Part shown: piece by piece, positions 45,522-53,026 of the stretch
Numbering within the stretch: position 1 is the stretch's first letter
How the letters are laid out: each line of letters begins with the position of its first letter
Assembly: GCF_033110965.1 (NCBI RefSeq)
Contig: NZ_CP137003.1
Coordinates: forward strand, 1-64,000
Source: Raineyella sp. LH-20
Lineage (GTDB): Bacteria > Actinomycetota > Actinomycetes > Propionibacteriales > Propionibacteriaceae
DNA: 64,000 nucleotides
Direction: 5' to 3'
Program-made: the position numbers and the translations under genes
Notes under the pieces: generated by a model
Seen by the model: the letters and a program-made list of their open reading frames with translations, nothing else
What the model was told of the DNA's origin: nothing
Database searches by the model: none

Positions 45522-46046
45522 ATGGAGAGCTTCGTCGTGCACATCGACCGCAAACGGTGGGCGGACATGCGGCGCAACGGCAGGATCGGACTGATCGGTT
45601 CGATCCTGATCGGCATCGGCGGCGGGGCGTGGCTCATCGTGGCGGCGTTCGTCGGCGCGCGGCAGACCAGCCTGGTGCCCGGCATCCTGCTGGTCCTGCT
45701 GGGCATCGGCGCCGGCTGGTCGTTCCGGCAGCGGCAGCGCCACCCGATCAGCGACAGCGGCTCGCCGGAGCTGCTCACCCTCGACCGCGAGGGACTGCGG
45801 CTCGATCCGGGCGAGGGAGCCGATCTCGTCACGCGGGCCTGGGGCGCGTTCAGCGTGAGCTGGCTGCACCGTTCCGGGAGCTACCTCGAGGTGGTCCCCG
45901 AGGGACTCCCGGCCGGACGGTGGCCGGTGATCGTGATCGACGTGACCCGGCAGGCCCTGGCGGCCGCGATCACCGAGCTGTCCGGCGGGACGGCCTCACT
46001 CGGTGACGGTTCGCGGCCGCCGCGGCCGCGTCGCACCGACCGCTGA
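45522..46046 (+). CDS. Small two-helix membrane protein, unknown
   Basis: A 174-residue protein with two hydrophobic helices at about residues 22-42 and 50-68. A 105-residue hydrophilic domain follows, with [30 protein letters not shown]. The layout resembles membrane-anchored PH-like proteins of actinobacteria, in which a helical pair is followed by a small beta domain. I cannot assign a family. The stop codon lies within the first of three 29-base tandem repeats that fill the 3' gap. Start ATG at [13 protein letters not shown]. It faces away from metG and converges on telA. Confidence 0.55.
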
Positions 46047-46127
46047 CGCCTCGCACCGGCGGGCCCGACCGCTGACGCCTCCCGCCGGCGGGCCCGACCG
46101 CTGACGCCTCCCGCCGGCGGGCCCGAC
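46041..46127. repeat. Three 29-bp tandem repeats, overlapping a stop codon
   Basis: CGCTGACGCCT begins at 46041, 46070 and 46099, an exact 29-base period, each followed by a CGCCGGCGGGCCCGAC block. The first unit carries the stop of the two-helix protein. A second pair of units, GGTGCACGGCACCG, follows at about 46142 and 46166 with a 24-base period. Confidence 0.85.
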
Positions 46128-46221
46128 CGCCGCGTCCGGGCGGTGCACGGCACCGGGCCCGCCGTGGTGCACGGCACCGAGCCCGCAGCAGTGGGCAACA
46201 CCGGCCGCGGTCGCAGACCCG

Positions 46222-47604
46222 TCAGCGCGTAGCCGGCTGCGCCAACCGGGTCGACTGCTCCAGCACCGCCTCGGGCAGGTGCGGCATCGTCGGCAGGGCG
46301 AGCGGCTCCTCGGCCTTGGTCACCAGCTCGACGACCGTCCCGGCCAGCTTGTCGGAGGACTGGCTGATCGAGTGCTGCGCCGCGATCAGCGCGTTGACCA
46401 CGTCCTGGCGTGCCTGGTGACCGTACGTCACCGCATCGATCATCGACTCGGCCTGCTGGTCGAGGGAGGTCGCCACCTCGAGGATCGTCTCGGGGCGCAG
46501 TGTCGGGGTCTGGATGGTCCGGGCGACCTCCCCCACCGTACGACCGGACGCCTGGGCGTACGCCTGCAGGACGTCGTTCGCGCCGTCGGCGACCACCTGC
46601 TGCATCTCGGCGGCCTGCTGGGCCTGCAGCAGCAGGCCCCACTGGGCGATGGTGAGCTTCATCGTCGGGATGGTCAGGTTCACCAGCAGGGCGAGGCGCT
46701 GCCCCAGCCCGTAGTGCAGCGAGCGGGTGTTGCGCACCTGGGGGGAGGTCGACCAGGCGACGAAGAGGCGCTGCTGGAACTCGTTGATCCGCACCTCCAT
46801 CGCCTGGATGAACTCGGCGATCCGGTTGCGCAGCTCCTCCTTGTCGCGCTTGTCGGGATCAGCCGGGTCGACGACGATGCCCTGCAGGGTGCGGGACGCC
46901 TCGTCGCGGACCGTCTCCATCACCGCGATGGCACCGACGAGCTGGCTGATCGACTGCTCGTTGGCCCGGTAGAGCTCATCGCAGAGCACCACGTTGCGCT
47001 TCAGCTCGCGCTGCTTGTCGACGAGCTGGCCGGCGATCCGGTCCAACTGCTGCTCGACCGTACGCGATTCCTCGAAGAGCATCTCGACGAAATCGCGGCC
47101 CCGGCGGAAGACGCCCCGGACCGAGTCCATGAAGCGGTCGAACGCTTCGCGGACGTCGGGGGCGTTGGGGTCGTAGCGCTTCCGGAACGACCGCATCGAG
47201 TCGTTGATCTGCTTCATCATCGCGGTCAGTTCGGGGATCTCGACCGGGCCGAGCTCGCGGAAGATCCGGTTGACCTGCATGTTCACCGCGTCGATGGCCT
47301 GGTTACCGAACTCCGCCATCACCTCGGTGTTGTTGAGCATCTTCGGGAACAGCTGCGCGCCCGCCGTACGGGCCTGTTCCTGCTGGCCTGCCGACAGCAT
47401 CGCCAGGCAACTGAACTGGCCCGGAGCCTGACCGGGCAGGGCGACGTCGGCGGCGGACTCGCCACCGATCCGCACCTCCCCCGCACCGGACTTCTGGTCG
47501 TGCAGCAACTGGTCGGCGACGGTGGCGAGGGCGGAGTCGGCGGCGCCGGCGGCCGGCGGCGCACCACCGGTGAGGGCGCCGAAGTCGATGGACATCTCGG
47601 ACAT
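46222..47604 (-). CDS. telA: TelA-family (toxic anion resistance) protein
   Basis: A 460-residue soluble, mostly helical protein of the TelA/YceH family, linked to tellurite and other stress resistance and to Ter systems. After a Gly/Ala N-terminus come long helices with FGNQAIDAVNMQVNRIFRELG, LFEESRTVEQQLDRIAGQLVDKQRELKRNVVLCDELYRAN, and RSLHYGLGQRLALLVNLTIPTMKLTIAQWGLLLQAQQAAE in pieces, all typical. No membrane helix. It is the last gene of a four-gene operon after an XpaC-like protein and two solute-binding proteins, one bearing a VWA domain. XpaC and TelA genes are paired in Bacillus, which supports the assignment. Molecular function is not established for the family. Confidence 0.9.
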   Translation of the reverse strand: MSEMSIDFGALTGGAPPAAGAADSALATVADQLLHDQKSGAGEVRIGGESAADVALPGQAPGQFSCLAMLSAGQQEQARTAGAQLFPKMLNNTEVMAEFGNQAIDAVNMQVNRIFRELGPVEIPELTAMMKQINDSMRSFRKRYDPNAPDVREAFDRFMDSVRGVFRRGRDFVEMLFEESRTVEQQLDRIAGQLVDKQRELKRNVVLCDELYRANEQSISQLVGAIAVMETVRDEASRTLQGIVVDPADPDKRDKEELRNRIAEFIQAMEVRINEFQQRLFVAWSTSPQVRNTRSLHYGLGQRLALLVNLTIPTMKLTIAQWGLLLQAQQAAEMQQVVADGANDVLQAYAQASGRTVGEVARTIQTPTLRPETILEVATSLDQQAESMIDAVTYGHQARQDVVNALIAAQHSISQSSDKLAGTVVELVTKAEEPLALPTMPHLPEAVLEQSTRLAQPATR

Positions 47605-47644
47605 GGGCTGCTCCTGTCGGAAGGGCGGTGGTAGGGACGGCGTG

Positions 47645-48769
47645 TCAGCCGCAGGTCGTACGGTCCTGCAGGCAGCCCAGTAGGGCCAGGGTCACCTCGG
47701 AGTTCGGCGCCGGGATCGTACGGAACTGCGGTGCGAGCGGGATCTGGGAGAAGTCAGCGACGTTGTTCAGCCCGGCGTTGGTGGCCGACCGGAAGCCGTA
47801 GCGCTTCCAAGCCAGGGTCTGCAGGTCCTCGTCCTGGAGAGCGTCGATCAACCGTCCGGCGTCGGCGTTCAGCGCCAGCACCGGATGGTCGGAGTAGATC
47901 GTCGGCTCCGGGTAGAGGATCCGCACCTCCTTCAGCACCGCGTCGGAGCGGGGCCCGGAGGTCACCTGCTGGATGATCTGGTTCTCGTAGCCGGCGTAGA
48001 GCGGCGCCTGGTACTCGCCGCCCTGGGTGAGCCACTGGCGGAAGCCGTTGTCGGAGGACGTCGCCTGGAGGCCCTGGGCGTCGTAGATCGTGCGCATCGT
48101 CGGCAGCGCCCGGCGTGCCTCCTCCGGGGTGGGCGGCCGCGAGGCGTCGGGCGTCGCGACCATGGTCAGCTCCAGCTGGGCGAGGGTGAAGCCCGAGTTG
48201 GACTTCACCGGGTCGGTGGAGGAGATGTTGATCGGGCCCTTCAGGTTGCCGGCCTGCAGGGCCTGCCAGGTCCCGCCCTTCAGCGCCTGGTCCAGCAGCA
48301 GCGCGCGGGCATCGACGATGTAGTGGGTGCCGTTGCGCTGCTCGACCAGCCCGGCCTTGACCAGGGCATCGGTGCCCTGGGGCCCGGCGTAGACCACCTC
48401 CGGCGACTGCAGCGCCGTCTCCGCGCGGTACTGGGCGAACGCGCCCGGATGCTTGGCCTCGAACACGTGTTGGGCCGACGCGCTGGACGGCCACAGACAG
48501 TCCCAGCCGCGCTGCGTGATCTCGTCGGTCGACATCAGCACCTGGTCGTACGAGCCCATCGACTGCCAGGTGACGGTAAGTCCATAGCGGTCCTTGAGGA
48601 TACGTACGACGTCCGGGTCGTGCATGAAATCGGACTTCTCCGAACCGCCGACGCAGCTGATGGTCACCGGCGCGACCCGATTCTGTTGGCGGATCACCAG
48701 GTATCCGCCGGCCACCAGCACCACCAGTACGAGTGCCAGGCCGATGAAGAACATGCCGCGATGGCGCAT
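47645..48769 (-). CDS. Membrane-anchored solute-binding-fold protein
   Basis: A 374-residue protein with one N-terminal membrane helix (about residues 6-25) and no lipobox. It has a periplasmic-binding-protein-like outer domain. The ligand-site style motif SSTDPVKSNSGFTLAQLEL resembles the NPTQSNSGATTLL motif in the VWA lipoprotein two genes upstream, so the two chains are probably homologous in that domain. SCVGGSEKSDF and DEITQRGWDCLWPSSASAQHVFEAKHPG follow the same plan. No ABC permease or ATPase is nearby. The gene begins one base after the XpaC-like gene and ends 40 bases before telA, inside the four-gene operon. Ligand and partner unknown. Confidence 0.75.
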   Translation of the reverse strand: MRHRGMFFIGLALVLVVLVAGGYLVIRQQNRVAPVTISCVGGSEKSDFMHDPDVVRILKDRYGLTVTWQSMGSYDQVLMSTDEITQRGWDCLWPSSASAQHVFEAKHPGAFAQYRAETALQSPEVVYAGPQGTDALVKAGLVEQRNGTHYIVDARALLLDQALKGGTWQALQAGNLKGPINISSTDPVKSNSGFTLAQLELTMVATPDASRPPTPEEARRALPTMRTIYDAQGLQATSSDNGFRQWLTQGGEYQAPLYAGYENQIIQQVTSGPRSDAVLKEVRILYPEPTIYSDHPVLALNADAGRLIDALQDEDLQTLAWKRYGFRSATNAGLNNVADFSQIPLAPQFRTIPAPNSEVTLALLGCLQDRTTCG

Positions 48770-48770
48770 C

Positions 48771-49385
48771 TCAACCTCCCAGGGTCGGTAGCTCGGGGGG
48801 TGCCACGGTGTCCAGGTTGGCCTGGTACTCGGCCATCTCCCCCTGGTTGACGAGACGGATGCTGTCGAGGGCGAACTGGTCGAAGCGTTCGACCGCCGCC
48901 CGCCCGTCCGCCAGCAGCCGTGGCGCGTCGGTGTAGTAGGTGGGGTGCTGCTCGATGTCGGCGTACTTCTCGACCAGGCCGAGCAGGCTGGTGACGTGCC
49001 CGCCGAATCGGGCGGCCGAGGAGTAGAGGCTGCTCGGCTGGGTCTCGGCGATCCGGTCGAGCAACTCGGGCACCACCTCCCCGGCGCGGGCGACGGCGGC
49101 GCGGACCTGGGGGTCACGGATCCGGCGGGCCGCCCCGGCGAGCTGCTGCAGGGTCGCCTCGACCTCGCGCACCCGGGCCCGGGCGTCGCTGCTGTAGTCG
49201 TCCTGTTGCCGCTGGTGCTCGGAGCGGGCCAGCATCAGATAGATCCCGGTCGCCCCGACCGCCGCCAACAGCACCGGCGCGCCCAGCCGCAGCGCCGGTC
49301 CGGCGCCGGACAACAGGAGGAAGAACACCGCGAAGACCGCGATCGCCACCAGGATCGCCAACGGTGCGGCGAGCCGTCGGATCAC
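48771..49385 (-). CDS. XpaC-like two-helix protein
   Basis: A 204-residue protein with two membrane helices at the N-terminus (about 8-27 and 33-51), then about 140 residues of coiled-coil helix: SEHQRQQDDYSSDARARVREVEATLQQLAGAARRIRDPQVR in pieces. This layout and its place before telA match the XpaC family. That family is named for 5-bromo-4-chloroindolyl phosphate hydrolysis, with no proven enzyme activity. Direct sequence similarity is weak by eye. The start codon is a GTG overlapping the VWA gene's stop (GTGA), so it is translationally coupled. It likely bridges the membrane-bound binding proteins and cytoplasmic TelA; that is inference. Confidence 0.6.
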   Translation of the reverse strand: MIRRLAAPLAILVAIAVFAVFFLLLSGAGPALRLGAPVLLAAVGATGIYLMLARSEHQRQQDDYSSDARARVREVEATLQQLAGAARRIRDPQVRAAVARAGEVVPELLDRIAETQPSSLYSSAARFGGHVTSLLGLVEKYADIEQHPTYYTDAPRLLADGRAAVERFDQFALDSIRLVNQGEMAEYQANLDTVAPPELPTLGG

Positions 49386-51031
49386 TTGTACCCCGCTGCC
49401 TCGCGCAGTGCCGAGACCAGGTCGTCCGACTCCACGTACGCCCCGCCGCTGGCCTGTGCGACGGCGGTGAGCTGCTCAGGGTCGGCGTCACCGAAGGCGA
49501 TCGCCACCACCGGCACGCCGGCCGCGCGGACCCGGTCCTGACCGGCCTTCGCACTGCCGGAGGACTGGCCGTCGGACATCACCACGATGAGCTTCTTGCG
49601 TCCCGGCTCGGTGTCGCGGGCCAGCGCGGCGACGGCGTCGTCGAGGCAGCGGTACATGTTGGTGCCGCCGCCCGGCTCGTAGCCGGTGACATCGGCTTCC
49701 AGCTGCCGCATCCGCGCCGGGTCGTTGCCGTCCACGGTGAACGGGCCGGCCGCTTGGTGGTCGTTGAAGACCGCCACGGTGGTGCGGTCCTCCGGGCCGG
49801 TCTGCAGCAGGTTGAGCCTGGCCTGGTCCGGGTCGAAGATCTGGTGCGCGGCCTCCTTCACCCCGTCCCAGCCGTCGCCGGACATCGAGCCGGAGCCGTC
49901 CAGGCAGTAGTACGTGGTCACCGGTCGGCGGTAGCGAGTGTGATAGCGCTCGAGCACCTGCTCGATCACCGCCGCGGACGGGTAGCTGATGCCCTGTTCG
50001 CGGATGTCGGTCTTGATCCCCCAGGCCGGGTCGAACACGGTCGTGTCGGGCTGGTCGAGGGTCAGTCCGATGGAATCGGCCGGCCGCCGCCCGAGGTGCA
50101 GCAGGTCCCGGCGGGCCTTCGGGTCGTTCAGCAGGTGGTCCTGCAGCTCGGAGAAGATCTTCTCCTTGGCCGCGTCGGCCTCGCCGGTCGGCAGGAAGCC
50201 GAACGGGGCGTCGCTGATCGCCAGCGCCCCCTCCGGGTAGACCGCGTAGAACGGCTCCTTGCCCTGCGCCACCAGCTGCTGGTTCTGCTCGATCACCAGC
50301 GCCTCGTAGGTGAACACGGCGTCGCACTGGTCGGGCGCGTCGACACACTCCTGCATCATCGTGCCGGTCGACGGTGGCGTACGGTCCATCGACTGGACGA
50401 AGGTGGTGATGCCCTGGTCGACCTGTGGGGAGTCGAGCTGGGCGGCGGTCAGCGGCTGGCCGGGCCCGTTGCCGGCGAAGTGGTTCATGAAGGCCAGCAG
50501 TGTCGTCGCGCCGGAGTTGGACTGGGTCGGGTTGGTCGACCAGATGTGGGGGTCGCCGCTCTGGATGGCGGTCAGCACATCGCCCACCGTCACCTGCGGC
50601 CTGTCGGTGAGTCCGAGCCGCTGCATCGCCGACCGGCGGCCGGCGAAGACGACCGGGGTGACGAACATCGACCGGGTGTCACGCAGCCTGCCCTGGGAAT
50701 CGCCGATCTGCGCGAACACCGAGGAGGCGAACCAGTAGGCGTCGTACGTCGTCGACCCGGACTGGAGCGCCCGTGCCTGGTCCACCGAGCCGAGCAGTGT
50801 GTAGTCGCAGGTGTAGCGCTGGGCCGTGCACCACGGCACGACGATCTGGTCGAGGATGGCCTTCTGCTCCGAGCCGGCGACGATCCGCAGCGTACGGTCG
50901 GCCGGTCCGCCGCGACCTCCTGCGCCGGAGTTCCCGCCGCCTCCCCCGCCGCCACACGCCGTCAGTCCGAGGACGAGGGCGAGAGCGAGGGTGGCGCCGA
51001 GCGCACCGAGGGTCCGTCGACGTGGGGGCAT
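49382..51031 (-). CDS. Lipoprotein with solute-binding domain and VWA domain
   Basis: A 549-residue exported lipoprotein. The signal peptide ends with a lipobox LTAC, with Cys26 the lipid-carrying residue, followed by a run of glycines. Residues about 46-345 form a solute-binding-like domain (LRIVAGSEQKAILDQIV, SGDPHIWSTNPTQSNSGATTLL). From about 370 a von Willebrand factor A domain begins, with a perfect MIDAS: Asp378, Ser380 and Ser382 in YYCLDGSGSMSG, and a later VVMSDGQSSGS. VWA domains bind metal and partner proteins. The pairing of a ligand-binding and a VWA module in one lipoprotein suggests a sensor or surface receptor. It leads the operon ending in telA. Ligand unknown. Confidence 0.85.
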   Translation of the reverse strand: MPPRRRTLGALGATLALALVLGLTACGGGGGGGNSGAGGRGGPADRTLRIVAGSEQKAILDQIVVPWCTAQRYTCDYTLLGSVDQARALQSGSTTYDAYWFASSVFAQIGDSQGRLRDTRSMFVTPVVFAGRRSAMQRLGLTDRPQVTVGDVLTAIQSGDPHIWSTNPTQSNSGATTLLAFMNHFAGNGPGQPLTAAQLDSPQVDQGITTFVQSMDRTPPSTGTMMQECVDAPDQCDAVFTYEALVIEQNQQLVAQGKEPFYAVYPEGALAISDAPFGFLPTGEADAAKEKIFSELQDHLLNDPKARRDLLHLGRRPADSIGLTLDQPDTTVFDPAWGIKTDIREQGISYPSAAVIEQVLERYHTRYRRPVTTYYCLDGSGSMSGDGWDGVKEAAHQIFDPDQARLNLLQTGPEDRTTVAVFNDHQAAGPFTVDGNDPARMRQLEADVTGYEPGGGTNMYRCLDDAVAALARDTEPGRKKLIVVMSDGQSSGSAKAGQDRVRAAGVPVVAIAFGDADPEQLTAVAQASGGAYVESDDLVSALREAAGYK

Positions 51032-51107
51032 GCCCCCATGCTGACCGATAAGGGGGCCCTGAGAGGGGATCCAACCCGTGAACTGATGGTGAACGCTACG
51101 TGTCGAG

Positions 51108-52244
51108 TCAGGCGGCCCCGCCGACCCCGGCGGCGTGCGGCCAGGTCATCGCCACATGGTCGGCGATCCGCCGGCGGGTGTCCTCGTCGACGAACGCCGC
51201 CCGGACGGCCCGGTCGACGGTGGTGCGGACGTCATCCAGGGTCCAGCCGAACGTCTCCACCAGCAGCGCGTACTCCCGGCTCAGCGTCGTACGGCTGACC
51301 AGCCGGTTGTCGCAGGAGATCGTCACCTCGAAGCCCAACCGGTGCAGCCGGTCGACCGGGTGGTCGGCCGGCCGAGCGGCGATCCCGGTCTGCAGGTTGG
51401 ACGACAGGCACACCTCCAGCGGCACGTGTCGGTCACGGACCATTGCGGCGGTCTCGCCGAGCACCGGCACCGATCCGGACAGGTCGATGTCCTCGATCAG
51501 TCGCACACCGTGCCCGATCCGGTCGGCGTGGCACACGTCGACGGCCTCCCACACGGACTCGGGCCCCACCGCCTCACCGGCGTGGATCGTGTACGGGAGG
51601 CCGACCCGCTCCAGGTAGCGGAACGCGTCGAGCTGCCGGCTGGCCGGGTGACCCGCCTCGGCGCCGGCGATGTCGTACCCGGCGACCAGGTCCTCCTCGT
51701 GGCGGGCGGCGAGCTCGGCGATCTCCAGGCCGCGGTCGGCGTGACGCATGGCGGTGAGCAACTGGCGGACGATGATCGGATGACCGTCGCGGCGGGCGGC
51801 GGCCATCCCGTCCTTCAGTCCGGCGCCGACCGCCCGGACGGTCGCTGCGAGGGTCAGGCCGTGGCGCTGGTGCTGCTCCGGCGCCCAGCGGGCCTCGGCG
51901 TACACCACGCCGTCGTCCACCTGGTCGAGGACGAACTCGTACGCCACCCGGCGCAGCGCTTCCTCGGTCTGCATGGCGGCGACGGTGTGCTCGAAAGTCT
52001 CCAGGTAGCGCTCCAGCGAGCCGCTGTTGGCCGCCTCGAAGAACCACTCGGCGAGTGCCGTCGGGGTGTCGGCGGGCAGCGGATGACCGACCGCGGCGGC
52101 CAGCTCCAGCAGGGTCCGTGGCCGCAGCCCGCCGTCCAGGTGATCGTGCAGGGCGACCTTGGGCAGCGCCCTCAGGCGGGCACTGTCGAGCGGGCGGGCG
52201 GTGGTGCGGGCATCGGCGGCGTCGCCGAGATCCGTGGCGGTCAC
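51108..52244 (-). CDS. add: Adenosine deaminase
   Basis: A 378-residue zinc-dependent adenosine deaminase that converts adenosine to inosine. The metal-binding HDHLDGGLRPRT opening (His-x-His), the IHAGEAVGPESVWEAVDVCHADRIGHG segment with the catalytic Glu and His, and late TISCDNRLVS with the metal Asp are all present. The start GTG overlaps the stop of the cytidine deaminase gene (GTGA), so the pair is coupled. Adenosine could come from the sahH product, and inosine would be the substrate of the deoD phosphorylase. The add-cdd order on one strand matches Rv3313c and Rv3315c. Confidence 0.95.
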   Translation of the reverse strand: MTATDLGDAADARTTARPLDSARLRALPKVALHDHLDGGLRPRTLLELAAAVGHPLPADTPTALAEWFFEAANSGSLERYLETFEHTVAAMQTEEALRRVAYEFVLDQVDDGVVYAEARWAPEQHQRHGLTLAATVRAVGAGLKDGMAAARRDGHPIIVRQLLTAMRHADRGLEIAELAARHEEDLVAGYDIAGAEAGHPASRQLDAFRYLERVGLPYTIHAGEAVGPESVWEAVDVCHADRIGHGVRLIEDIDLSGSVPVLGETAAMVRDRHVPLEVCLSSNLQTGIAARPADHPVDRLHRLGFEVTISCDNRLVSRTTLSREYALLVETFGWTLDDVRTTVDRAVRAAFVDEDTRRRIADHVAMTWPHAAGVGGAA

Positions 52245-53026
52245 TGGAAGTCCTCGGGGTCGAAAGTGTCCGGTGCGGCGGGAGTCCCACCGTACCCGGG
52301 GTCGTCATGCCGATCGTACGGATGCCGCGCCGGGTCGTACGTCTCGTCCGGTCCCGGGCGGACCGCGGCGAACGGCCTGGGTCGCCCCGGCGGGGCGGTC
52401 GGGACGGGCGAGGCGGGCCGGATGACCGGTGCGGTCGGCCTCGGTGGGGTCGGTGGCACCGGTGCAGTCGGCGGCACCGGTGCAGTCGGCGGCACCGGTG
52501 CGGTCGGTCGGCCGACCGAGGGCATCGGCGCCGGCGATACCGACCGAGGGGTCGGCGCACCCGAACGCGTCGGCGGATCCGCCGAGCCCGCCGGAGGCAC
52601 CGGCAGCGGGCCGGCGACCACCGCGGTGTCCGCGACGCGGTCCAGGTCGGCGGGGCCGAACGCCCGGGGCAGCAGCGCGTCCATCGTGATCGGTCCGTCG
52701 GTGCTCTGCACCAGCATCCCGGGGGCGGCGTGCTCGTGCAGCAGCTGTCGGCACCGGCCGCACGGCATCAGCGGCCTGCCGGTGGCGTCCACGCACACCA
52801 GCGCCACCAGGTGGCCGCCGCCGCTCAGCGCCAGGGCGGACACCAGGCCGCACTCGGCGCACAGGGTGACACCGTACGAGGCGTTCTCGACGTTGCAGCC
52901 GGCCACCACCCGGCCGTCGTCGACCAGTGCGGCGGCACCGACCGGGAACCGGGAGTAGGGGGCGTACGCCTTCTCGCAGGCCTCGCGGGCCGTGCGGCGG
53001 AGCGCCGGCCAGTCGATCTCGGTCAT
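52241..53026 (-). CDS. cdd: Cytidine deaminase with proline-rich C-terminal extension
   Basis: A 261-residue protein, twice the normal length. Residues 1-135 are a standard tetrameric cytidine deaminase: AYAPYSRFPVGAAAL, GCNVENASYGVTLCAEC with Cys56 and Glu58, and MPCGRCRQLL with Cys89 and Cys92 as zinc ligands. Residues about 136-261 are low-complexity, rich in Pro, Ala, Thr and Asp, with PVPPTA repeats built from an 18-base tandem DNA repeat. They end in an acidic tail. Such a tail on a deaminase is unusual and has no known role. It overlaps the M20 hydrolase gene by one base and the add gene by four, so three genes form one operon. Confidence 0.9.
   Translation of the reverse strand: MTEIDWPALRRTAREACEKAYAPYSRFPVGAAALVDDGRVVAGCNVENASYGVTLCAECGLVSALALSGGGHLVALVCVDATGRPLMPCGRCRQLLHEHAAPGMLVQSTDGPITMDALLPRAFGPADLDRVADTAVVAGPLPVPPAGSADPPTRSGAPTPRSVSPAPMPSVGRPTAPVPPTAPVPPTAPVPPTPPRPTAPVIRPASPVPTAPPGRPRPFAAVRPGPDETYDPARHPYDRHDDPGYGGTPAAPDTFDPEDFQ
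52455..52508. repeat. Three 18-bp tandem repeats in the cdd tail
   Basis: The unit GGCACCGGTGCAGTCGGC occupies 52455-52472 and 52473-52490 exactly, and a third degenerate copy 52491-52508. On the minus strand it encodes repeated Ala-Pro-Val-Pro-Pro-Thr. Confidence 0.9.

Follow-up and report, generated by a model that had tools for sequence, protein, structure and literature searches.

Two solute-binding-like proteins joined to an XpaC-like protein and TelA in a conserved four-gene operon of Raineyella

The pairing of an XpaC-like protein with TelA is best described in Firmicutes. There, xpaC-yaaN is listed as a core sigma-W operon of Bacillus subtilis (PMC3498285), the XpaC-like gene and telA1 of Lactococcus are given ratios of 10.3 and 3.44 in connection with CesSR (PMC3139573), both genes are "up" in Staphylococcus, at 2.04 and 2.32 (PMC3480535), and in Listeria lmo1966-lmo1967 rise modestly under bacteriocin (log2 0.63 and 0.61), a mutant in the telA-type gene lmo1967 being cited as four-fold more sensitive to nisin and two-fold more sensitive to tellurite (PMC12791056). 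In this literature TelA, named after tellurite, behaves as an envelope-stress protein. It is also associated with the Ter systems: a jumbo-phage comparative-genomics paper has TelA and the TerF vWA protein form structures beneath the membrane and presents Ter parts as proposed to block the entry of phage (PMC7824862). I consider here an operon lying in a stretch of 64,000 nucleotides from Raineyella sp. LH-20 (contig NZ_CP137003.1, positions 1 to 64,000; the whole stretch is called the window below), in which genes for an XpaC-like protein and TelA stand together with genes for two solute-binding-like proteins.

I will refer to the four genes as A to D, according to their order along the minus strand; their coordinates are collected in Table 1. 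A encodes a lipoprotein in which a solute-binding-like domain is followed by a VWA domain, B an XpaC-like protein, C a second solute-binding-like protein that appears to be anchored in the membrane, and D TelA. A and B overlap by 4 bases, B and C are parted by a single base and C and D by 40 bases, with no space for further genes between them, and the four are one tight operon. Scores are to be read against the curated Pfam cut-offs, which are 23.8 bits for VWA, 29.8 for PF10112, 30 for PF05816 and 25 for PF13531. The VWA match of A reaches 59.2 bits, and B and D exceed the cut-offs of PF10112 and PF05816, respectively. A hydropathy scan predicts a single N-terminal hydrophobic segment in A, where it is the signal peptide, and another in C; B has a pair of such segments, and D lacks them. 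The initial annotation of this stretch had described the locus in just these terms, from the sizes of the junctions to the two-domain lipoprotein, the two-helix XpaC-like protein, the second anchored binding protein and the soluble TelA, and its description holds.

In an alignment of 11 A sequences the lipobox cysteine (Cys26) is invariant, as are D378, S380, S382, T457 and D487, to which I assign the positions of the metal-ion-dependent adhesion site (MIDAS) motif. The genome of the window carries one match to PF10112 and one copy of TelA. PF10112 I take to be the XpaC family, in line with the naming used in one paper on Listeria; among 14 control genomes it was matched in Lactococcus only, with no match in Bacillus subtilis. 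Its Pfam name is "5-bromo-4-chloroindolyl phosphate hydrolysis protein", and a Listeria protein of this kind is called XpaC-like in PMC12791056. The hydrophobic segments of the window's B lie at residues 7–25 and 34–52 and are followed by a charged tail, with arginines before the first segment. Judging from hydropathy and charges, this protein is expected to form a hairpin whose two ends both lie inside the cell.

The four genes were found together at 17 loci, 15 of them in Actinomycetota, where they span at least two classes, and two on plasmids of Betaproteobacteria. The samples were 396 genomes of the phylum, 57 nearer relatives, 72,556 plasmid records (searched by tblastn with a C protein) and 50,697 phage records; genomes and loci are cited, where they must be told apart, by working handles (G and L numbers). 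C is present in 11 of the 396 phylum genomes, G107 being counted as lacking it (its match is weak and partial, E 2e-4, and its locus has an A-like protein with solute-binding and VWA parts), and TelA exceeds its cut-off in 17. Both occur in nine genomes, and in all nine they lie in one cluster. The association of C with TelA gives a Fisher p of 2e-12 by genome and of 4.5e-7 by genus (five genera with both, six with C and 11 with TelA, out of 237), of which the genus figure is the fairer, since genomes are not independent. Among the nearer relatives 8 of 57 have C. In six of these the set is complete and lies on a single contig (G000, G397, G407, G409, G441 and G444); in G399 the contig stops within C, and in G445 no more than a truncated C-like open reading frame (ORF) is present. 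G407 and G409 belong to the window's GTDB family, and Granulicoccus phenolivorans and Nigerium massiliense are named relatives that have C. Two further genomes of the window's own genus, G396 and G398, gave no match to TelA, to C or to A's binding domain; within the genus the set is therefore gained or lost as a whole.

The search of the plasmid records matched C in eight. In Sphaerotilus sulfidivorans (Betaproteobacteria, L076) C is followed by genes named "toxic anion resistance protein" and "vWA domain-containing protein" and by one for a hypothetical protein. Variovorax sp. SRS16 (L079, one of three records read) has C, a "toxic anion resistance protein", an interval of some 430 bases that holds a hypothetical ORF of 46 amino acids, a "substrate-binding and VWA domain-containing protein" and, last, a hypothetical protein. 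According to profile searches, the last gene in these two clusters, as in those of Deinococcus and of Nonomuraea (order C-D-A-B), is the B of Streptomyces-like sets, an identification in which only the Nonomuraea match (E 1e-55) is independent, the profile having been built with the proteins of the other three. In Sphaerotilus, Variovorax and Deinococcus, too, neighbouring genes overlap, by 4 or 14 bases. Carriage by phages was considered and set aside, as the C protein of Sphaerotilus found no match among the phage records.

The order of the genes varies, and the cluster is retained. A-B-C-D is found at seven loci (the window, L055, L056, L057, L015, L016 and G228, the last spread over the two contigs L018 and L073), C-D-A-B at nine (L017, L020, L021, L023, L058, L059, L076, L077 and L079) and C-A-B-D at one (L022); A precedes B at all 17. 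Trees were built for the 16 loci at which a single stretch holds A, C and D, G228 being counted as a set and left out here. Patristic distances agree closely between the trees (Spearman 0.88 for A and C, 0.94 for A and D, 0.92 for C and D; permutation p 0.0005 each), an agreement driven largely by a split into two lineages. All three trees place Propionibacteriaceae together with family f41, which belongs to another class of the phylum, and set them apart from the remaining hosts: families f4 and f78 and Nonomuraea, of the window's class, family f20, of another class, and the Betaproteobacteria. Since the trees agree with one another yet cut across the classification of the hosts, whole sets seem to have been transferred between hosts, the set travelling as a unit. 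The initial annotation had allowed that the four genes might not be conserved together; with 17 loci across phyla, shuffled orders and concordant trees of A, C and D, they are.

The binding domain of A and C share ancestry, to judge from profile alignment. By hhalign, the domain of A (11 sequences) matches C (8 sequences) with a probability of 98.6% and an E value of 5.9e-16 over 226 columns, whereas the VWA part of A, used as a control, gives 0.2%. A common ancestor had been suggested at the outset from the motif SNSG, which is indeed found in both proteins of the window, and the alignment bears the suggestion out. The blocks common to the two are GSE, an SS that follows the third strand, (N/T)(N/D)P..SNSG and YE, which in A as in C count among the most conserved positions. 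SNSG is invariant in the 11-row alignment of A (alignment A3), and one Variovorax row has SNTG in a wider one (A8). In C only S190 and S192 of the motif are invariant in an alignment of eight rows (A1, the window and seven diverse homologues), and the invariance is lower still in a wider alignment (A7).

Four of the eight A proteins scanned reach PF13531 (SBP_bac_11): those of L020 (55.8 bits), Variovorax L079 (56.8), Deinococcus L078 (45.5) and G401 (L083, 64.7). The cut-off is not reached in the A of the window, L015, L022 or Sphaerotilus L076. By sequence the nearest solved binding protein is ModA, a weak match (E 0.003) that was outscored by two pentatricopeptide repeat chains, which I read as repeat artefacts. 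As the domain of A is akin to the ModA-like PF13531 group, a small anion may be entertained as the ligand of A and C, as a lead only. Next to the C gene of Sphaerotilus (L076, 3912-6981) a gene for a PhoX-family phosphatase ends 4 bases before C, which is a possible hint of a phosphate ligand. I do not argue for phosphate, as PhoX was seen beside this one C and no other neighbourhood was examined for it.

None of the six C proteins scanned, the window's included, exceeds the cut-off of any Pfam family, the best near-miss being 23.6 against 25 bits for PF13531. Against solved structures one profile of C gave three matches, the best with an E value of 0.29, and another gave none. The N-terminal segment of C passes the hydropathy threshold of 1.6 in 15 of 17 proteins, those of Variovorax (1.58) and Deinococcus (1.19) falling below it. 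An AlphaFold2 model of C, from the window and two named relatives, was too poor to support any claim (mean predicted local distance difference test score 49.3, predicted TM score 0.43).

TelA is commoner than the full set, and 11 TelA loci without A or C were read (L062–L070, L084 and L085); of the TelA-only places in the phylum sample, nine of ten were covered, G260 being left out. A profile of B finds a clear neighbour at five of the 11 loci (E values 1.6e-5 at L062, 1.6e-37 at L066, 2.4e-6 at L067, 4.4e-24 at L084 and 7.4e-26 at L085), a weak one, over short stretches, at three (L064, L069 and L070; E 5e-5 to 0.001) and none at the remaining three (L063, L065 and L068). Because TelA thus has B-type neighbours where A and C are absent, the XpaC-like protein and TelA are probably the core pair, and A and C the addition. 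The XpaC-like protein at L062 (7255-8453) is split over two overlapping frames, as by a frameshift.

The window's family has two classes of TelA, the usual one scoring 294–317 bits and a divergent one scoring 69–87 bits. Five of the genomes searched have the divergent TelA, four of them with the full set and the fifth, G401, with A and B; G407 carries both classes. The branches of TelA are very long (5.2 and 9.6 changes per column in two trees), and the inner topology of TelA is unsafe. Among solved structures the TelA profile matches Cry6Aa best (E 0.0013), which was taken as a likeness of coiled coils and not used.

With these parts in hand, A and C have the look of paired outer sensors appended to the XpaC-TelA core. 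I tentatively read the four genes as one membrane-spanning envelope-stress module in which A and C would sense conditions outside and act through B on TelA, a reading that draws on sequence comparison and in which my confidence is somewhat less than even. A, held by its lipid, and C, held by its helix, would be exposed at the outer face, where both would recognize small solutes, identical or similar and perhaps anionic, serving as sensors rather than as subunits of a transporter. The metal site of the VWA domain would let A make a ligand-dependent contact with C or B; B would relay the state through the membrane, so that the coiled coil on its cytosolic side would hold or release TelA beneath the membrane; and TelA would then protect the envelope, the role that XpaC-TelA seems to have in Firmicutes. 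A surface sensor signalling across the membrane to TelA was also one model offered in the initial annotation. It stands in part: the predicted layout fits it, and against it count the A-like and C-like proteins with no TelA nearby and the ABC (ATP-binding cassette) genes upstream of four sets, both of which are taken up below. Signalling from A and C to TelA is what I infer.

Several observations weigh against such a module. The partnership is looser than the 17 loci suggest: Deinococcus taeanensis has C-A-B with no adjacent TelA (the rest of its genome was not searched for TelA); a second locus of G128 (L025, 5586-9345) has a C-A pair and then an unrelated membrane protein in the place of B and TelA; C occurs without A in G050 and G235; G401 (L083, 4454-8809) has a divergent A-B-D without C, with a long, secreted-looking extra N-terminal part on its B; A-like proteins occur with no B, C or D detected in G439, G450, G107, Miltoncostaea and Streptomyces NBC_00564; and A-like or C-like proteins have no TelA nearby at L078, L025, L019, L024, L074, L081, L082, L086 and L087. 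The proteins of the B slot, moreover, are only remotely alike between lineages. Outside the window's lineage they fall short of the PF10112 cut-off (22.5 bits at L015) or match no Pfam family, hhalign gives them 0.5–24%, and profile matches across groups have E values of 4e-4 to 0.02, to be gauged against an antisense artefact that reached 0.0016. Of 14 B proteins, eight were found to have two hydrophobic segments and the other six a single one, and that B is the same everywhere rests largely on place, size and membrane segments. As for D, TelA in the window's family is so divergent that the function known from Firmicutes may have been lost, and in the tree of all TelAs those that belong to sets do not group as a single clade; a single origin for them was rejected (p-AU 4e-57), a rejection that the long branches weaken. 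The occurrence of A and C at loci that lack TelA may mean that the outer pair works with different inner partners, or that these loci are remnants.

Two of these loci deserve a word of their own. In two genomes of family f5 (L019, 5466-7004, and L024, 5956-7533) C has neither A nor TelA beside it in the stretch that was read, and at L019 it is preceded by a long N-terminal part with no Pfam match.

If A and C do signal to TelA, a larger claim can be framed, which I hold to be doubtful: that the operon is a new transmembrane signalling device encoded in one piece, with paired outer binding proteins that report a solute, a metal-dependent VWA clamp on one of them, an XpaC-type transducer and TelA at the inner face, and with no kinase, cyclase or sigma factor, able to move between phyla as a unit and to couple its outer half to other inner partners. 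Short of that claim, a conserved set that places two putative outer-face binding proteins beside an XpaC-like protein and TelA is a concrete candidate for the input of TelA, and it suggests an undescribed way of informing TelA about the exterior of the cell.

The same parts might instead form a scaffold, an assembly, either static or formed under stress, that makes membrane and envelope stiffer or repairs them, with binding domains that have become ligand-dead contact surfaces and a VWA metal site that clamps partners together. I consider this rather unlikely, and still the best of the alternatives. The idea that TelA and TerF make structures under the membrane reportedly goes back to a comparative-genomics paper. 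Their listing as formers of such structures, in PMC7824862, agrees with a scaffold, and so do the failure of all six scanned C proteins to reach any Pfam cut-off and the failure of the C profiles to find a solved binding protein. It accounts less well for the conservation of GSE, SS, SNSG and YE, which are among the best conserved positions in A and C and which ligand binding would explain. By analogy with known binding-protein structures, these residues presumably line a pocket.

Alternatively, A and C might be ordinary transport subunits serving an ABC permease encoded nearby or elsewhere, with their adjacency to XpaC and TelA a matter of regulation only. The kinship of half the A proteins with PF13531, with ModA as the nearest solved relative, is what one would expect of such subunits, and the window's genome has other PF13531 proteins (six matches, five over the cut-off); those matches include neither A nor C. 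The absence of ABC genes claimed in the initial annotation was confirmed: the operon has none, and a query for ABC ATPases gave no match in the window over about 8 kilobases to either side. With two such queries (permeases were not searched for), no ATPase was found around 10 of the 17 sets, the window's included, and ATPase-type ORFs around seven. At four of the seven the set is immediately preceded by ABC genes on its own strand, which speaks for transport and against a sensor. These four systems differ from each other, and for that reason look like chance neighbours: L016 and G228 have a branched-chain-type ATPase pair, with a Peripla_BP_6 piece also in the stretch of L016; at L022 the ATPase is accompanied by a binding protein of its own, of the NMT1 type (PF09084, 202 bits); and L059 has an exporter-type ABC protein. 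The remaining ATPase-type ORFs are UvrA-like (L015) or not adjacent (L057 and L077). Together with the anchor-like segment in 15 of 17 C proteins and the VWA domain on A, this makes a role in transport improbable.

That the set is a defence module guarding the membrane against the entry of phages or plasmids, as proposed for Ter parts in PMC7824862, is very improbable, for all its patchy distribution and the flotillin and Wadjet JetA genes near the Variovorax set on its large plasmid (L079, 2515-14828), as no PADLOC model matched the four proteins beyond a weak likeness of TelA to ZorA (E 0.03) and the genes flanking the sets of the window and of Sphaerotilus are metabolic-looking.

Table 1. 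Features of the operon in the window, with the basis of each assignment.
Feature	Position	Strand	Residues	Description and basis
Gene A	49382-51031	minus	549 aa	solute-binding and VWA lipoprotein; ORF and Pfam
A, solute-binding domain	50042-50899	minus	about 45-330	hhalign match to C
A, SNSG motif	50510-50521	minus	171-174	
A, VWA domain with intact MIDAS	49421-49906	minus	376-537	Pfam
Gene B	48771-49385	minus	204 aa	GTG start; XpaC-like; PF10112, 44.2 bits, and hydropathy scan
Gene C	47645-48769	minus	374 aa	anchored solute-binding-like protein; ORF, hydropathy and homology to A
C, N-terminal hydrophobic anchor		minus	8-26	hydropathy scan
C, SNSG motif	48191-48202	minus	190-193	
Gene D	46222-47604	minus	460 aa	TelA; PF05816, 84.5 bits

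The surroundings of the operon offer a few further observations. Immediately downstream of telA, at 46036-46130, lies a GC-rich tandem repeat with a unit of 29 bases (3.3 copies, 96% matches). A perfect 16-base palindrome, TGGGGGCATGCCCCCA, spans the start codon of A (51012-51040) and is not conserved in a relative of the same genus (L055). Upstream of A, on the same strand, is a gene for adenosine deaminase (51108-52244), and a gene for cytidine deaminase (52241-53026), whose product has a proline-threonine repeat as a C-terminal extension (PTAPVPPTAPVPP), ends at the adenosine deaminase gene.

How, then, does the operon compare with what has been described? No description of the four-gene set was found in the open-licence literature searched, in keeping with the initial annotation, which knew of no described function for it. 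That annotation had also approached TelA through the Ter-type stress systems. It was right that neither TerC nor TerD is near, TerD (PF02342) having no match in the window's genome and the two TerC genes lying at 1.50 Mb of the contig, about 1.45 Mb from the operon, and for the same lack of TerD the Ter framing is weak, the XpaC-TelA pair being the better reference. The set resembles Ter systems (TerB/C/D/F and TelA) in having TelA and a VWA protein together; in the window, however, the VWA domain is on a lipoprotein and hence predicted to be outside the cell, whereas TerF and TelA are proposed to form structures beneath the membrane (PMC7824862). With the binding proteins of ModA/PF13531 ABC importers it is linked in that half the A proteins scanned, though not the window's, pass the family cut-off and C is homologous to the domain of A. 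It differs from them in that its A and C appear to be anchored, are paired and in one case are fused to VWA, in an operon without permease or ATPase. The NCBI name "substrate-binding and VWA domain-containing protein", which was not met in the open-licence literature searched, describes the domain order of A, and the A of Variovorax bears exactly that name, which implies no set of partners. Closest is the xpaC-telA (xpaC-yaaN) operon of Firmicutes, which likewise joins a PF10112 protein and TelA, and B and D of the window pass both cut-offs; the window's set differs in adding two predicted extracytoplasmic solute-binding proteins, one of them fused to VWA, and its TelA, at 84.5 bits, is very divergent from the usual class, which scores 289–319 bits among relatives. 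What is known here, then, are the families of the parts and the XpaC-TelA core pair, and what appears to be new is a variant of the XpaC-TelA stress system to which A and C have been added.

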